From NCBI RefSeq assembly GCF_003952385.1, contig NZ_CP034444.1, forward strand, positions 4,278,001 to 4,342,000: a stretch of 64,000 nucleotides of DNA, written 5' to 3'. This document shows positions 2,526 through 27,917 of the stretch, piece by piece. The notes beneath the pieces were generated by a model, which was not told the origin of the DNA, ran no database searches, and saw nothing but the letters and a program-made list of their open reading frames with translations. This DNA is from Mesorhizobium sp. M1D.F.Ca.ET.043.01.1.1 (GTDB taxonomy: Bacteria > Pseudomonadota > Alphaproteobacteria > Rhizobiales > Rhizobiaceae). Position numbers and translations under genes: made by a program. Within the stretch, counting starts at the first letter, position 1, and the number at the start of each line of letters is the position of its first letter.

Positions 2526-2553
2526 AAACGTCCGCCTGCGCAGGCGGACGTTT
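2526..2553. terminator. Perfect 28-bp palindrome, bidirectional terminator
   Basis: Fourteen-base arms (AAACGTCCGCCTGC and its exact complement) meet with no spacer and end in TTT on either strand. It sits between the convergent ends of serA and the EamA transporter gene, so it can end transcription from both sides. A hairpin with a four-base loop is the likely RNA form. Confidence 0.75.
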
Positions 2554-2595
2554 CAACAAGCCAAACCTCGTCCGACCTCATCCTCATCGAGGCGG

Positions 2596-3549
2596 CTATC
2601 TCTGGCTGCCGCTTGACATGCCTAGAGAAGGTGGGGGCGATGCCTGCAGGATTGCCCTTCTGCCACTGTATTCGGCGAGCGCGATGCCACCCAGCACGAG
2701 CGCAAGCGCCAGGCCCTGGTAGAGCTGAAACTGCTCGCCGACGATCAGCACCGAAAGCAGCGTGCCGAAGATCGGCACCAGGTTGATGAACAGCCCGGCG
2801 CGGTTGGCGCCGATCAATTCATTGCCTCTGATGTAGAAGATCTGCGAGACGACGGACGCGCCGAGCGCGGTGTAGAACGCGACAGTCCATCCCCGAGCGT
2901 CCGGAGCGATGACGCGACCCGCCGCCACTTCCCAGACAAAGAACGGCAACGAGGTCAAAAGCGCGGCGAGCGACAAAGCCAGCATGAGGCTTTGCCAGCG
3001 GATGGCCGGCTTCAGACGCAGCCCCACCGAATAGAGGCTGTAGCAGAGAACCGCGACCAGCATGATGGCGTCGCCGAAATTGAGATCGAGCCTCAGCAAC
3101 TGGCTGAGATCGCCGTGGCTCGCGATGATGGCGACACCGACAATGGTCAGCGCGACACCGACGATCTGCAGGCGCTGCACGTGCAGCCGGAACAGCGCGA
3201 AATTGGCGAGAATGATGACGATCGGTATGGCTGCCTGCAAGATCGAGACGTTGATGGCGGTGGTGTGGTTCAGCGCCGTGTAGAAGATGACGTTGAAGAT
3301 CGTGAAGCCGCAGGCGCCGAGGCCGGCAATCAGCCGCCAATGCCGGCGCAGCTCCGGCCAATCCTCGCGAAAAGCCCGCCAGCCGACGGGCAGCATGATC
3401 AGCACCGCCAGCACCCAGCGCAGGAAAACCAATGTCATCGGCGACACATGGCCGACGGCAAGCTTGCCGGCCACGGAATTGCCGCCCCATAGCAGCATGG
3501 TGGCGAGAAGGAACAGATAGGCGGCTCGATGCATCGCTTGATCCGGCAT
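2596..3549 (-). CDS. EamA/DMT-family transporter
   Basis: A drug/metabolite-superfamily inner-membrane exporter of about 317 residues. The chain is almost entirely hydrophobic, consistent with ten transmembrane helices in two EamA repeats; the first begins at AYLFLLATMLLWGGNS and the second after about residue 160. The frame extends to 3705, but the added 52 residues are polar and unlike the family, so the ATG at 3549 is preferred; an ATG at 3534 is also possible and neither has a strong ribosome site. Members export amino acids, metabolites or drugs; the substrate here cannot be told. It is convergent with serA and divergent from purA. Confidence 0.85.
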   Translation of the reverse strand: MPDQAMHRAAYLFLLATMLLWGGNSVAGKLAVGHVSPMTLVFLRWVLAVLIMLPVGWRAFREDWPELRRHWRLIAGLGACGFTIFNVIFYTALNHTTAINVSILQAAIPIVIILANFALFRLHVQRLQIVGVALTIVGVAIIASHGDLSQLLRLDLNFGDAIMLVAVLCYSLYSVGLRLKPAIRWQSLMLALSLAALLTSLPFFVWEVAAGRVIAPDARGWTVAFYTALGASVVSQIFYIRGNELIGANRAGLFINLVPIFGTLLSVLIVGEQFQLYQGLALALVLGGIALAEYSGRRAILQASPPPSLGMSSGSQR

Positions 3550-3765
3550 GGGAGGCGCGTTCGAAGTTCGGAGCCGGCCTACGGCGACGGCCAGGCCAAG
3601 TAAATGATGCGAAAGCCGGAATTTGTTGTGCCTGGCTTGTTGCGTCTGGCTTGATGCGCCTTGGGCTGGTTTCGGCGGCAAAGAAGGGGTCGCATCGGCA
3701 TGCACATGAGGTTATAGAGGCCTGTCGTTTCAAGCCGCCAAGGCGGCATCTCAAGGGAAAAGAAC

Positions 3766-23092: not shown

Positions 23093-26000
23093 CTATTTCT
23101 TCAGCTGGTCGCGCAACGCGGCGAGCTTGGCGAAGGGCGAATCCGGGTCGAAGCGCTGCGGGCGCTCGTCGCGCGGCTTGCCCTGGAAGGCCGGCTTGCC
23201 GGCATTGCCCTTGCCGTCCTGCCTGTTGCCCTTCCAGTCCGGCCGCCCCTCGCGGCGGTCGGGGCGCTCGCCTTGCGGCTTGCCGTCGCGCCGCTCGCCG
23301 TCACGTTCCGGGCGCGGCTTGAACTTCGAGCGATCGAAGCGCGGCTTGCCGGCGCCCTCGCGCTGGTCGCGGCGTCCCTCATGAGCCGGCCGATCGCTGG
23401 CCTGGCCACCCGTGGCGCCTGGCTGGCCATCGCGTGCCGCCTGGCCGTTGCGCGGACGATTGTCGCGGCGGTTGTCATGACGGTGGCGCGGCCGCTGATG
23501 GTCGAAACGGGCCTGCCGCCACAAAAGGATCGGCTTAGGCTCTTCCTGCTCGGTTGCGGTTTCGGCGGCGGCGGCTTCCGGTGCGGCGTCCGTCGGGGCT
23601 TCCGTTGCCGCGGCGGTATCGGACCGAGCAGCGCTCTCGCCACTTTCCGCCGCAGGTGCCGCTTCGGCAGTTGGCTCAGCCTCGGCAGCAACGGCAACCA
23701 GTTCATCGGTTTGTTCCGCCGCGGCCTCGTTCGCCGCCACGGTTTGGGTGTGCGCTTTTGCTTCAGCAGCGGGTTCTGCATCTGCTTCGGCAGCAGGCTC
23801 GCCTGTGGTATCGGCTTCGTTGGCGGCGTGTACTTCAGCCGCCGCCTCCGAGTCTTCGGCAGCCGCTTCGGCAACGGCATCCGTGGTCGATGCCTCAGCC
23901 TTTGCTACCCGAGCGGCCTCCTCCGCTGCGAGCTTCGCGGCGGCGGCCTCGCGGGCCGCGTTGTCCAGCGCGTCGAGCTTGGCCTTCACCTCGGCGGCCG
24001 GCTTCGGTTCGGAGCGATAGCCCAGACCTTTGAGGATCTCTTCCATGTCGTCGGCGGTGGCGCCGAGAATCGACATCATCGGCGGCGTCACCATGAAGGC
24101 GTGGCCGTCATAGGCGCCGTCCGGACGCTGGCCGAGGCCGGGCTTCCAGTTGGTCGCCGGACGGATCAGGTCGGCCAGCCGCTCGAGGATGTCGACGCGC
24201 ACGGCGCGGCGGCCGAGATTGCGATAGCCGGCGAGCTTGTAGAAGGTCTTGTCGAAGGCCGGGTCGATGACCACCGACGTGCGGCCCGATGCCAGCGCAT
24301 GCACCACGTCGCCGAAGCCCGGCTTGTCCTTGCCGTCGTTCTTCAGCGCCCACAGCAGCGTCACCAGCCCGGCCGGCGCCGGCTTGATCAGCGCCGGCAC
24401 GAAGACATGGTAGGCGCCGAAGCGCACGCCGAGGCGTCGCAGCGCCGCGCGGCCCTCCTGGTCGAGCGACTTCATCTCCTCGGCGATGTCGCGGCGATTG
24501 ATGAGGCCGAAATGCTCGACGAGCTGGAAGGCGATGCCGCGCGCGATGCCGGCGAGCTGCTCGGCATTCTTCAAATCGACCAGCGGCTTCAAAAGCGTTT
24601 CGATCTGGAAATTCACGAAACGCTCGGCGCGCGCCGCCACCTTGTCGCGGGCCGGCCCGGTAAGCTGCTCGTCGGCGAGCAGCACGAGCCGCGGCTTGAG
24701 TGCTTCGTCGCCGGCGACCAGCGTGCCGATCGGCGCGCCGATCCAGCGCAGGACGCCGTCCGAGCCCAACGCCAGATCGCCATTGGCGCAGGCGGCGAAG
24801 CGCTCGGCGCGCGCCTCGAACTCCGCGCTGAGCGCCTTCTGGGCTGCGGTGCGCACCGCCTTGGCGTCCTCGCCGCCGGCGCTCTGGTCGGCGGTGAAGC
24901 GGAATCCCTGCAACTCGCCGACGTGATGGCCTTCGACGAGGACGGTTCCGGTTGGGCTGATTTCGGCTTCAGGCATGGTATTTTCTCTAAGGCGCCGCAT
25001 GAGGACGGAAGTCCTGCGGTCTACGAAGCGTTTCGTCAACCGCTCATGCAGCGCATCCGACAATCTGTCTTCGATTTCGCGCGTCTTTTCCTGCCAGTGT
25101 AGCTGATCGGCCAGCCAGCCAGGCCGGTTGGAGACGAAGGTCCAGGTGCGGATCTGGGCGATCCGGTGCGACAGCGTGTCGATATCGCCATCCGTGGTGT
25201 CGGCTCGCCGCACCTGCTCGGCCATGTAATTCTCATCGACATGGCCACGGCGTGCAAGGTCCATGTAGATCGAGGCGATGAGGTCAGCATGCTGGGCCGG
25301 CGCGATCTTGCGGTAGTCGGGCAGCGCGCAGGCTTCCCAAAGCAGCGCCACGCGCTCCTTGGCAGTGGCGAGCGCCCTGATGTCCTCGTCGCGCGACAGG
25401 TGCTCCAGCGCCTGGGCGTCGACCGCCGGCAGCGCCCGGGTCAGCCCTTCGACCGGCGCGTTGGTTTCGATCGAGCGCTTCAACGCGTCGAGGCTGGAGA
25501 AATCGAAGTCGGCGGTGCGCCACTGCAGCACCTTCACCGGGTCGAAATCGTGCCCCTCGATCTTCTTGACCAGATCCTCGTCGAACGGATCGACCTGGCC
25601 GGTGACGCCGAAGGTGCCGTCGCGCAGGTGGCGGCCGGCGCGGCCCGCGATCTGGCCGAGCTCGGCCGCAGTCAGGTTGCGGTACTGGTAGCCGTCGAAC
25701 TTGCGGTTCTGGGCGAAGGCGACATGCTCGAGATCGAGGTTCAGTCCCATGCCGATGGCGTCGGTGGCGACGAGATAGTCGACGTCGCCCGACTGGAAGA
25801 TCTCCACCTGGGCATTGCGGGTGCGGGGCGAGAGCGCGCCGAGCACGACGGCGGCACCGCCCTGCTGGCGGCGGATCAGCTCGGCGATCGCATAGACCTC
25901 GTCCGCCGAGAAGGCGACGATCGCCGTGCGCCGCGGCAGACGGGTGAGCTTCTTCGAGCCGGCATAGGCAAGGTGCGACAGGCGCGGCCGCGTCACCACC

Positions 26001-26455
26001 GAAACGCCCTTCAGCAGTTTCTGCAGGATGCCGTGCATGGTGGCGGCGCCCAGAAGCAGCGTCTCCTGGCGGCCGCGCAGATGCAGGATGCGGTCGGTGA
26101 AGATGTGGCCGCGCTCGAGGTCGCCGGCAAGCTGCACCTCGTCGATGGCGACGAAGGCGGCATCGGTCTCGCGCGGCATCGCCTCGACGGTGCAGACGGA
26201 ATATTTGGCGCCCGCCGGAACGATCTTTTCCTCGCCGGTGACCAGCGCCACCTTGTGCGCGCCAACCTTCTCGCAAACGCGGGCATAGACCTCGCGGGCA
26301 AGAAGTCTCAGCGGCAGGCCGATGACGCCGGTCTCGTGCGCCACCATGCGCTCGATGGCGAGATGGGTCTTGCCGGTGTTGGTGGGGCCGAGCACGGCGG
26401 TCACGTCGCGGCCCGAAAGGATCAGCGGCTGGGAGTGTTTCGGCTGGATATTCAT
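23093..26455 (-). CDS. Suv3-like DExH RNA helicase with long acidic/basic tail
   Basis: A 1120-residue protein related to the mitochondrial RNA helicase Suv3. Motif I is GPTNTGKTH, motif II DEVQLAGD, with motif VI QIAGRAGRH in the second RecA-like domain; a Suv3-type C-terminal helical region follows. From about 780 an Ala/Glu-rich acidic stretch of some 170 residues gives way to an Arg/Lys/Gly/Asp-rich basic tail (PRHRHDNRRDNRPRNG, RRDGKPQGERPDRREG) probably for RNA binding. The ATG at 26455 is preferred because the extra residues to 26584 do not look like the family. It is the first gene of a run with the S4 protein. The GANTC-rich block lies upstream. Confidence 0.92.
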   Translation of the reverse strand: MNIQPKHSQPLILSGRDVTAVLGPTNTGKTHLAIERMVAHETGVIGLPLRLLAREVYARVCEKVGAHKVALVTGEEKIVPAGAKYSVCTVEAMPRETDAAFVAIDEVQLAGDLERGHIFTDRILHLRGRQETLLLGAATMHGILQKLLKGVSVVTRPRLSHLAYAGSKKLTRLPRRTAIVAFSADEVYAIAELIRRQQGGAAVVLGALSPRTRNAQVEIFQSGDVDYLVATDAIGMGLNLDLEHVAFAQNRKFDGYQYRNLTAAELGQIAGRAGRHLRDGTFGVTGQVDPFDEDLVKKIEGHDFDPVKVLQWRTADFDFSSLDALKRSIETNAPVEGLTRALPAVDAQALEHLSRDEDIRALATAKERVALLWEACALPDYRKIAPAQHADLIASIYMDLARRGHVDENYMAEQVRRADTTDGDIDTLSHRIAQIRTWTFVSNRPGWLADQLHWQEKTREIEDRLSDALHERLTKRFVDRRTSVLMRRLRENTMPEAEISPTGTVLVEGHHVGELQGFRFTADQSAGGEDAKAVRTAAQKALSAEFEARAERFAACANGDLALGSDGVLRWIGAPIGTLVAGDEALKPRLVLLADEQLTGPARDKVAARAERFVNFQIETLLKPLVDLKNAEQLAGIARGIAFQLVEHFGLINRRDIAEEMKSLDQEGRAALRRLGVRFGAYHVFVPALIKPAPAGLVTLLWALKNDGKDKPGFGDVVHALASGRTSVVIDPAFDKTFYKLAGYRNLGRRAVRVDILERLADLIRPATNWKPGLGQRPDGAYDGHAFMVTPPMMSILGATADDMEEILKGLGYRSEPKPAAEVKAKLDALDNAAREAAAAKLAAEEAARVAKAEASTTDAVAEAAAEDSEAAAEVHAANEADTTGEPAAEADAEPAAEAKAHTQTVAANEAAAEQTDELVAVAAEAEPTAEAAPAAESGESAARSDTAAATEAPTDAAPEAAAAETATEQEEPKPILLWRQARFDHQRPRHRHDNRRDNRPRNGQAARDGQPGATGGQASDRPAHEGRRDQREGAGKPRFDRSKFKPRPERDGERRDGKPQGERPDRREGRPDWKGNRQDGKGNAGKPAFQGKPRDERPQRFDPDSPFAKLAALRDQLKK

Positions 26456-26633
26456 CGGCTCGGAAATGACGCTTTCTGCCGCTTGTTGTCGGGGACGCGG
26501 CGGTGCCGCCGCGTATGACAGCCGACACATAGGGATTTCAGACGCGAAGCGAAAGCGGAATGTTCCCATCAGGAGATGGCGCAACGACAGGCAAGATCAA
26601 AATCCGCTGCCGATTAACCGTTGGAACGAGTCT

Positions 26634-26655
26634 GGAACGAATCGGCGACGAATCA
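26634..26655 (+). repeat. 22-bp direct repeat, copy 1
   Basis: GGAACGAATCGGCGACGAAT plus CA carries two GANTC sites 11 bp apart, one helical turn. An identical copy is at 26916-26937. A GGTTT(T)GTTCAC block lies about 20-25 bp after each copy, so the duplication extends imperfectly beyond the core. Confidence 0.9.
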
Positions 26656-26915
26656 CTGACTCGGTCTGATTCAGGTTTTGTTCACGGCTATATGTGGATT
26701 TTTTGACGATGAGTCTCACCACATGCTGAATCCGGGAACTGGCCCGTTTCATGCTTGGCTTGACGGGCCGCGAGGGCTGTTAACCTTTGCTGGTGAACGA
26801 TCACCGCCGGCTAGGGCGCAGCCGCCAAGATTATGAAATGGTTGATCTTTCCTAACCGCCGTTAATCTTTTCAGCGCCATTTCCGAGCCTCGGCGTTAAC
26901 TTTGCGACCAAAGCC

Positions 26916-26937
26916 GGAACGAATCGGCGACGAATCA
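26916..26937 (+). repeat. 22-bp direct repeat, copy 2
   Basis: Identical to 26634-26655, 282 bp away, and followed by TTGTTCACC and then TTGTCCACA. See copy 1. Confidence 0.9.
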
Positions 26938-27096
26938 GCGATCCACGCATTTTCCCGGTTTGTTCACCCCCCAGATATGGTGTTGTCCACAGCTTGCGCA
27001 CCGAAAACTCACAGCTTGTGAACAAGGTTTCGCACAGGGCGCGGGGAGGCCGTTAACTTTTGCGTGCCGAATTGAGGCATACATCGCGCGGCCCGG

Positions 27097-27130
27097 AAAA
27101 AACAGCCGACCCGATTGCGTCGGGCCGGCT
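27097..27130 (-). terminator. Terminator downstream of phbB
   Basis: On the minus strand AGCCGGCCCGA pairs with TCGGGTCGGCT (one G-U) around a short loop and is followed by a run of T. It sits 36 bp after the phbB stop and ends the phbA-phbB direction. Confidence 0.82.
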
Positions 27131-27165
27131 GCCGCGGCGTCAAAAGATCTCAGGCAAGATGGATC

Positions 27166-27891
27166 TCAGGTGAAATATTGGCCGCCATTGGCGCTGATCG
27201 TCGAGCCGGTGATGAAGCCGGCCTCGTCCGACGCCAGGAAGACGACGCAGCGCGCGACCTCTTCCGGCTCGCCGAGCCGGCCGACCGGAATTTGCGGGAT
27301 GATGCGCTCGTTAAGCACCTTCTCGTCGATCGCCTTGACCATCTCGGTCGCGATATAGCCGGGACAGATGACGTTGACGGTGATGCCCGCGCGGGCCCCC
27401 TCCTGCGCCAGCGCCTTCGAGAAGCCGATGTCGCCGGCTTTGGCGGCGGAATAATTGACCTGGCCGGCCTGGCCCTTCTGGCCGTTGATCGAGGAGATGG
27501 TGATGACGCGGCCGAACTTGCGGTCGCGCATGCCGCTCCACAGCGGGTGCGTCATGTTGAAGACGCCGGAGAGGTTGGTGTCGACGACCTCCTTCCACTG
27601 CTCGCGGGTCATCTTGTGGAACATGGCGTCACGCGTGATGCCGGCATTGTTGACCAGCACCGAGACCGGTCCGAGATCGGCCTCGACCTGTTTGATGCCG
27701 GCGGCGCAGGCGTCGTAGTCGGCGACCGACCATTTGTAGACGGGAATGCCGGTCTCGGCCTTGAATTTCCCAGCCGCTTCGTCGTTGCCGGCATAGTTCG
27801 CGGCAACCGAATAACCGGCATTCTTCAAAGCCACCGATATGGCCGCGCCGATGCCGCGCGATCCGCCCGTGACGATTGCTACCTTGCTCAT
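27166..27891 (-). CDS. phbB: Acetoacetyl-CoA reductase
   Basis: Reduces acetoacetyl-CoA to (R)-3-hydroxybutyryl-CoA with NADPH, the second step of polyhydroxybutyrate synthesis. The 241-residue SDR has the cofactor motif TGGSRGIG near the N-terminus, NNAG at the fourth strand, and the catalytic Ser-Tyr-Lys set in ISSINGQKGQAGQVNYSAAK. PGYIATEM is the substrate-loop hallmark of PhaB. phbA lies upstream on the same strand, separated by 124 bp with an inverted repeat. Confidence 0.97.
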   Translation of the reverse strand: MSKVAIVTGGSRGIGAAISVALKNAGYSVAANYAGNDEAAGKFKAETGIPVYKWSVADYDACAAGIKQVEADLGPVSVLVNNAGITRDAMFHKMTREQWKEVVDTNLSGVFNMTHPLWSGMRDRKFGRVITISSINGQKGQAGQVNYSAAKAGDIGFSKALAQEGARAGITVNVICPGYIATEMVKAIDEKVLNERIIPQIPVGRLGEPEEVARCVVFLASDEAGFITGSTISANGGQYFT

Positions 27892-27917
27892 GTGGTCCTC
27901 CCTTTAAAATCGTCTGA

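Follow-up and report, generated by a model that had tools for sequence, protein, structure and literature searches.

The cluster of GANTC, TTGTYCAC, and TTAAC words described here lies in a 64-kb stretch of the Mesorhizobium sp. M1D.F.Ca.ET.043.01.1.1 chromosome (the window). It is the upstream region of a gene for a Suv3-like helicase, and it probably, though far from certainly, forms a composite promoter/operator of that gene carrying LexA- and GcrA-type sites. The core of the cluster is a module of ~75 bp that is present in two copies. The whole control region is contained in an intergenic gap of 710 bp (positions 26456–27165), bounded by the stop codon of phbB at 27166 and the start codon of the helicase gene at 26455, both genes lying on the minus strand; a first-pass annotation of this DNA had correctly placed the cluster upstream of an RNA helicase. 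The presumed target gene (23093–26455, minus strand) encodes 1120 residues with matches to PF22527 DEXQc_Suv3 (E = 2.4e-26) and PF00271 Helicase_C (E = 1.9e-9). Suv3 helicases act in the mitochondrial lineage, and the Alphaproteobacteria are the class usually linked to that lineage.

Motif density in the gap

Nine GANTC sites, presumed targets of CcrM, span positions 26628–26936 (26628, 26639, 26650, 26658, 26668, 26711, 26728, 26921, and 26932 in a motif scan), and five of them fall within 45 bp at steps of 8–11 bp. The first-pass annotation had counted nine sites in about 310 bp, and all nine are present, in 309 bp. Its expectation of one site per 256 bp understated how rare such a cluster is, as the genome carries 1.41 sites per kb, or about one per 709 bp (2230 sites in 79 pieces of the same chromosome covering 1.58 of 7.13 Mb, the piece overlapping the window excluded, with mononucleotide shuffles). 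The maximum elsewhere in this sample is six sites per 310 bp, in a stretch between the DnaA boxes and hemE, and five GANTC sites within 50 bp are unique to the cluster in the sample and the window. The 22-bp direct repeat GGAACGAATCGGCGACGAATCA, noted earlier for its two GANTC sites, recurs at 26634 and 26916 and in each copy carries the two sites 11 bp apart.

The gap also holds four of the six TTGTYCAC words of the 64-kb window (26678, 26960, 26983, and, on the minus strand, 27018), and more than one such word per 350 bp occurs in the sample and the window only here (four) and at hemE (three). The four words had been described as DnaA-box-like together with TTGTCCACA; the four exist, and TTGTCCACA is one of them, not a fifth. 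TTAAC words, which had been likened to CtrA half-sites, are indeed enriched, with 8 of the 13 strand-hits of the window falling in the cluster, but the full CtrA site TTAA-N7-TTAA is absent from the 64-kb window, which holds GTTAAC/TTAACC half-words alone. Motif density is higher here than anywhere in the 1.58-Mb sample, and chance is no reasonable explanation of the cluster.

The two module copies

Module copy 1, proximal to the helicase gene, occupies positions 26623–26697 (plus strand; E = 2.0e-18 with R1, a model built from sequence only) and copy 2, distal, occupies 26906–26979 (plus strand; E = 3.0e-11 with R1), a direct repeat ~283 bp away. Each module resembles two inverted LexA boxes of the GTTC-N7-GTTC type arranged around an invariant YGATTCG. 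In copy 1, the LexA-type box at 26624–26638 (minus strand), which reads GTTCCAGACTCGTTC on the helicase strand, is an exact GTTC-N7-GTTC box upstream of the gene and scores 13.7 with a matrix derived from lexA promoters of other genomes. The inverted box at 26669–26683 (plus strand), ATTCAGGTTTTGTTC, has a degenerate first half, a spacer of the form NNGNTTY, and the top matrix score of the gap, 13.8. Between the two boxes sits the core CGAATCA (26649–26655, minus strand), which reads TGATTCG on the helicase strand and is a YGAKTCG-type GcrA/CcrM motif. Copy 2 repeats this arrangement, with a LexA-type box at 26906–26920 (minus strand; GTTCCGGCTTTGGTC, one mismatch, score 13.3), a TGATTCG core at 26931–26937 (minus strand; located from the sequence and the genus alignment), and an inverted box at 26951–26965 (plus strand; TTTCCCGGTTTGTTC, score 12.7).

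Distribution among relatives

A 582-bp gap query gave BLAST matches in all 37 genomes of the genus that were searched, including the genome of origin, and partial matches in 7 of the 24 genomes that come from other families of the order. Comparison across Mesorhizobium, for which loci were fetched from 30 of the 37 genomes, places both module copies in all 30 aligned loci, with a weakest nhmmer E value of 1.9e-4 for copy 2. Starting from the helicase alone, the module was found upstream of the gene in 15 of the 24 other families of the order (nhmmer, E ≤ 0.01). It was not found there in the remaining nine families, eight of which have lexA and nine gcrA.

This helicase-first search avoids a bias of the widest search, which ran a degenerate module pattern over 84,980 named species, each represented by one genome, and matched at least 120 stretches, of which 80 loci were examined. 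The pattern required GAAC-N7-GAAC and CGAATC, so the named loci, several of which supply rows of the module alignment A1, are no evidence for those letters. Among the matches listed are loci from Bradyrhizobium, Rhizobium johnstonii 3841, Agrobacterium, Nitrobacter, Methyloceanibacter, and Stappia, and in 78 of the 80 named loci among them the helicase gene adjoins the module in the same orientation, with 35–417 bp to its start; the other two loci end before the helicase gene would be reached.

In its own genome, R1 finds just the two copies, the next place having an E value of 0.3 (150 of 2078 candidates scored). Across the class, 42 of 385 genomes, own included, match at E ≤ 0.001 with at most 12 candidates per genome, and the other 343 have no R1 match under these strict filters. 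Two matches in one genome occur in 2 of the 42: in the genome of origin and in G421, where the second match is weaker and lies elsewhere. The helicase gene is next to the module in 27 of 29 class-search loci (the best-scoring of the 42 genomes, three from the same order and 26, in 11 families, from outside it). A laxer upstream search of ten class genomes that have the helicase and lack an R1 match found no module. For G044, the upstream sequence was short (553 bp).

Several loci depart from the usual gene order. At L310 (G262, contig C67), the helicase side of the module (8402) is occupied by genes bearing MerR, MerT, and heavy-metal domains; the helicase gene itself is found at 2540–3691 of this contig, ~4.7 kb off, as if an insertion had occurred. 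In L306 (G114, a single contig of 1.7 Mb), the module (~1500–1590) lies 17 bp before a gene for a LolA-like protein (PF17131) that has the place and orientation of the helicase gene, as a promoter could sit; no helicase was found in genome G114. An acyl-CoA dehydrogenase gene lies on the other side of the L306 module, and likewise beside L298. In L120 and L250 (G013), the module still adjoins phbB, followed by genes for an Lrp/AsnC-type regulator and pyruvate dehydrogenase E1, and the helicase gene of this genome is at the start of a different contig (C127), with ~235 bp of upstream sequence.

Conserved letters and spacing of the module

The module consensus is GGAAC-N6-GAAC[GA]AA-N6-[AC]CGAATC[AG]...TTC-N7-GTTC. 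The distances from GAAC (or GGAC/AAAC) to CGAATC, 14 bp, and from CGAATC to GTTC, 31 or 32 bp, hold in 43 of 44 modules, a rigidity that is inflated by the preference of profile searches for fixed spacing. The 44th module, that of G056, is incomplete, GTTC being absent there, which leaves 14 of the 15 order modules complete. CGAATC is followed by A or G in all 43 complete modules from other families. All 15 order modules (14 of 14 complete ones) retain the left GAAC-N7-GAAC, even though 11 of the 15 have lost the GANTC in its spacer; of the 29 class-search loci, 8 have an exact match in both left GAAC halves. Two or more GANTC sites per module remain in 10 of 14 order modules and in 14 of 29 class-search modules. 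A reading of the cluster as a pure GANTC array was rejected, as non-core GANTC sites are often lost in other families and GAAC/GTTC is retained. These half-sites, which the first-pass annotation did not mention, outlast most of the GANTC array in conservation.

LexA-type boxes

GTTC-N7-GTTC is given as the alphaproteobacterial LexA motif in text of PMC7987155 and also of PMC12700426, and the former notes an overlap of LexA motif and GANTC for ruvC and imuA. We collected 54 boxes from 29 of 30 lexA loci (L328 is without upstream sequence) into a matrix, leaving out the genome tested in each case. The boxes were gathered by looking for GTTC-N7-GTTC, and p values were taken from 300 Markov resamplings. 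When the region upstream of the helicase gene is scanned with this matrix, the top-scoring site has p ≤ 0.05 in 13 of the 15 families with a module, compared with one of the nine families without, at 0.050. This best site lies inside a module copy in 14 of the 15 module families and outside it in G041.

The spacer letters provide a test of LexA-likeness that is more independent than the matrix. NNGNTTY is the spacer in 20 of 29 GTTC-type boxes of lexA promoters and in 12 of 14 right-hand module boxes of the order and 17 of 29 of the class search (29 of 43 together), as opposed to just one of the 179 NTTC-N7-GTTC words found over 1.58 Mb of the genome of origin. The likeness in these letters is found mainly in the right-hand module box.

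The module shares with alphaproteobacterial lexA promoters the half-sites, the 7-bp spacer, the NNGNTTY letters, and the inverted pair of a GAAC-type and a GTTC-type box, a pair that 23 of the 29 lexA promoters carry (allowing the GTTC type one mismatch). It differs in the gap between the boxes, mostly 9–11 bp in lexA promoters and in the module a fixed 30 bp with an invariant GANTC, and in its presumed target, a Suv3-like helicase. Presence or absence of LexA is uninformative as a discriminator: LexA was found in 26 of 28 genomes with a module versus 20 of 28 without, the 19 class genomes without a module in this comparison and in that for GcrA being those listed of the 343. It was also found in all ten class genomes that have the helicase and lack the module. 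The two genomes that have modules and in which no lexA was found, G038 and G042, are assemblies of 380 and 80 contigs that are 92% and 94% complete.

The GcrA/CcrM-type core

YGAKTCG is described in text of PMC7987155, with attribution to Haakonsen et al. 2015, as the extended motif of methylated promoters activated by GcrA. The module core CGAATC[AG] reads YGATTCG on the helicase strand, and in every one of the 43 complete modules it fits this motif in coding-strand orientation. GcrA was detected in each of the 28 genomes with a module that were examined. Of the ten class genomes that have the helicase and lack the module, four have a full-length GcrA match, three have a split or shorter match that still exceeds the cut-off, one has a weaker match, and two gave none. 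The association of GcrA with the module thus appears at most weak, the genomes being related, and GcrA presence is a weak discriminator, as many genomes that lack the module have the protein too.

The module resembles the GcrA/CcrM promoters of Caulobacter described in text of PMC7987155 in that it places YGATTCG ahead of the gene, in coding-strand orientation, in genomes that bear GcrA; it differs in that the core is fixed inside a LexA-like dyad. The first-pass annotation had offered a promoter controlled by CcrM and CtrA as one reading of the cluster. The CcrM half of that proposal gains support from YGATTCG in 43 of 43 modules and GcrA in 28 of 28 genomes, and the CtrA half is unproven.

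Proposed regulation of the helicase gene

From what is observed, the position, orientation, spacing, and conservation of the module and the match of its spacer letters to lexA boxes, we infer which proteins bind the module, that it acts as a promoter, and in which direction each protein regulates the gene. CcrM-methylated YGATTCG at the module center would allow GcrA-bound RNA polymerase to fire leftwards into the helicase gene. The left of the two inverted LexA-type boxes that flank this core would lie over the −10/start region, such that LexA would repress the helicase gene until DNA damage relieves the block. Replication through the locus would reset methylation, and helicase expression would be expected to rise with replication-coupled changes in methylation and with SOS induction. 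In Mesorhizobium, the module is doubled and has gained DnaA-box words next to its distal copy.

In the shortest cases, the module ends ~35–55 bp before the start codon (starts being extrapolated from the protein match), a distance that would place the transcription start at the gene-proximal end of the module. For the window, this predicts a transcription start near 26615–26640 and a leader of ~170 nt. A sigma-70 consensus scan of the gap returned no promoter (0, as compared with 0.4 in shuffles).

It is quite possible, although we would not yet call it probable, that the module is a rigid ~75-bp switch that is spread over the class, combines LexA and CcrM/GcrA sites at about one locus per genome, and couples the Suv3-like helicase to DNA damage and to replication-fork passage. 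If so, the helicase would be marked as a factor in replication-transcription conflicts or in repair in Alphaproteobacteria. A little-studied Suv3-type RNA helicase would then become part of both the SOS and the cell-cycle methylation network, and a testable link would be established between RNA metabolism, DNA damage, and replication in this class. Bacterial promoters usually turn over quickly, which makes a 75-bp element with near-exact spacing before the same gene in many families unusual.

LexA boxes, GcrA/CcrM promoters, and the overlap between the two are already known. An account of the composite module or of its link to a Suv3-like helicase was not found in the literature searched by title and abstract, a scope that takes in few of the subscription journals. 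The word "helicase" is absent from the text of PMC7987155. The available main text of PMC5172544, on hypomethylated GANTC, contains no mention of a helicase, SMc03877, or phb, and the available portions of PMC6813329 and PMC6473078 contain no occurrence of "helicase". Literature matches listed for the gene name mgpS are unrelated abbreviations.

Alternative readings of the module

The 75-bp pattern is found at one locus in nearly every matching genome, with a rigid spacing for which a factor that binds many other targets would have no need, and this spacing hints at a joint complex or a dedicated factor. A dedicated alphaproteobacterial protein complex that reads the module, the likeness to LexA boxes and to YGAKTCG being partly coincidental, would also account for G038 and G042, which have modules and no lexA that could be found. 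We nonetheless consider such a complex unlikely, as agreement with lexA-promoter boxes in the spacer letters is far more frequent in the module than in the genomic background and GcrA is present in all 28 module genomes. Still less can be said for a structured RNA in the helicase leader acting by autoregulation or in the manner of a riboswitch, which we regard as very unlikely. Pairing is conceivable between GAACRAA and TTYGTTC, some sequences have both sides changed at two of the seven pairs, and the arms in AT-rich relatives are GAACATA/TATGTTC; however, an inverted pair of half-sites predicts the same inverted repeat, and RNAalifold returns a single 7-bp stem with a covariation term of 0 and four invariant pairs. 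A known RNA family was rejected, positions 26000–27900 giving no Rfam match at E ≤ 1.

The mixture of motifs had also suggested a second origin-like locus. The clustering of GANTC and TTGTYCAC here exceeds that next to hemE, and the cluster shares with a hemE-linked alphaproteobacterial oriC the combination of clustered GANTC sites and TTGTYCACA words, but a second or former chromosomal replication origin at this site is extremely improbable. The hemE gene (3,453,731) is 851 kb from the site (~4,304,600), as expected from the earlier remark that the cluster is far from hemE. A stretch of 103 bp that lies ~0.4 kb upstream of where hemE matches holds three TTGTYCACA boxes, and three sites that each differ from parS at one position occur at 3,461,492–3,463,591, 0.84 Mb from the cluster, such that oriC is likely at hemE, the evidence from skew being weak. 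GC skew, measured in 72 sampled pieces of 20 kb and over 144 kb without a break, is weak across the chromosome, with a shallow cumulative minimum at 3.0–3.3 Mb, near hemE, and a maximum near 7.0 Mb (72 pieces). It becomes more positive past the site, from +0.003 over the 60 kb to the left to +0.017 over the 60 kb to the right and, on a larger scale, from an average of +0.006 at 3.5–4.2 Mb to +0.025 at 4.3–5.2 Mb, a point in favor of an origin; yet there is no change of sign, and six of the eight pieces at 3.5–4.2 Mb are already positive. The cluster differs from a hemE-linked oriC in having neither a skew sign change nor parS nearby and in having as its conserved partner the helicase gene, to which the module is tied across the class. 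The promoter reading, if right, would explain this resemblance to an origin, by which motif-based origin finders could mistake the cluster for oriC.

The distance to hemE is itself fairly constant in the genus: of 12 congeners with chromosome-scale contigs, 11 have the site 421–499 kb from the nearest hemE, and the twelfth has it at 829 kb. One genome, G009, has two hemE (URO-D) matches, at 1053809 and 6231635. Between hemE and the window, three sampled pieces of the genome of origin (3.80, 3.90, and 4.00 Mb) have a GC content of 57–59% versus ~65% around them; the low-GC region at 3.8–4.1 Mb may be an integrated island that explains a hemE distance of 851 kb rather than ~450 kb.

DnaA-box words

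Two of the words read as DnaA boxes, at 26678 and 26960, are the GTTC ends of the module, where some other families have TTTGTTCAC or TTCGTTCAC and others TTCGTTCCC or TTTGTTCC. Of the two that remain, TTGTCCACA at 26983–26991 (plus strand) stands where genus loci often have TTATCCACA, or have a near match 11 or 22 bp further on, and a second origin-type word, TTGTTCACA, was located at 27017–27025 (minus strand) by the TTGTYCAC scan. A word within one mismatch of TTATCCACA occurs at one of three places 11 bp apart in 25 of the 30 aligned genus loci. Among the matches listed, 9 of 67 named loci not labelled Mesorhizobium have a TTATCCACA-like word within ~600 bp, as opposed to 8 of 13 so labelled, and a DnaA input is on this account plausible mainly in the Mesorhizobium lineage.

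Intergenic DnaA-box clusters away from oriC are known from E. coli as datA and DARS, and the gap is similar in each of these respects. A locus of this kind that titrates or reactivates DnaA, combined with the promoter at least in Mesorhizobium, would tie the DnaA level to replication of the locus. Two or more TTGTYCACA words within 200 bp are found in the genome at hemE and here only, and the persistence of the TTATCCACA-type box in the genus and the position 421–499 kb from hemE in 11 of 12 congeners speak for the same function. The constant distance, however, follows from synteny, and among the matches listed outside Mesorhizobium, 58 of 67 named loci are without a TTATCCACA-like word near the module and 62 of 67 have fewer than two TTGTYCAC words. 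A datA/DARS-like role is for these reasons distinctly unlikely; unlike datA and DARS, the gap has DnaA boxes that look like lineage-specific additions to an older module.

Other features of the gap

A hairpin followed by a T-run at 27094–27133 (minus strand) is a possible intrinsic terminator of the phbAB transcript, with a 5-pair stem at 27123–27106 and longer pairing by eye. The terminator scan returned this one site, no more than chance, and the call is weak because shuffles give 1.0 such site on average. Beside the helicase start, at 26515–26568 of the window, a block running from CGTATGACAGNCGACACATAGGGATTTC to GGAATGTTCC is strongly conserved in the genus and is not explained by the module. 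CGTTAAYYTTT-like words at 26776, 26858, 26894, and 27049, between and after the modules, are likewise largely conserved in the genus.
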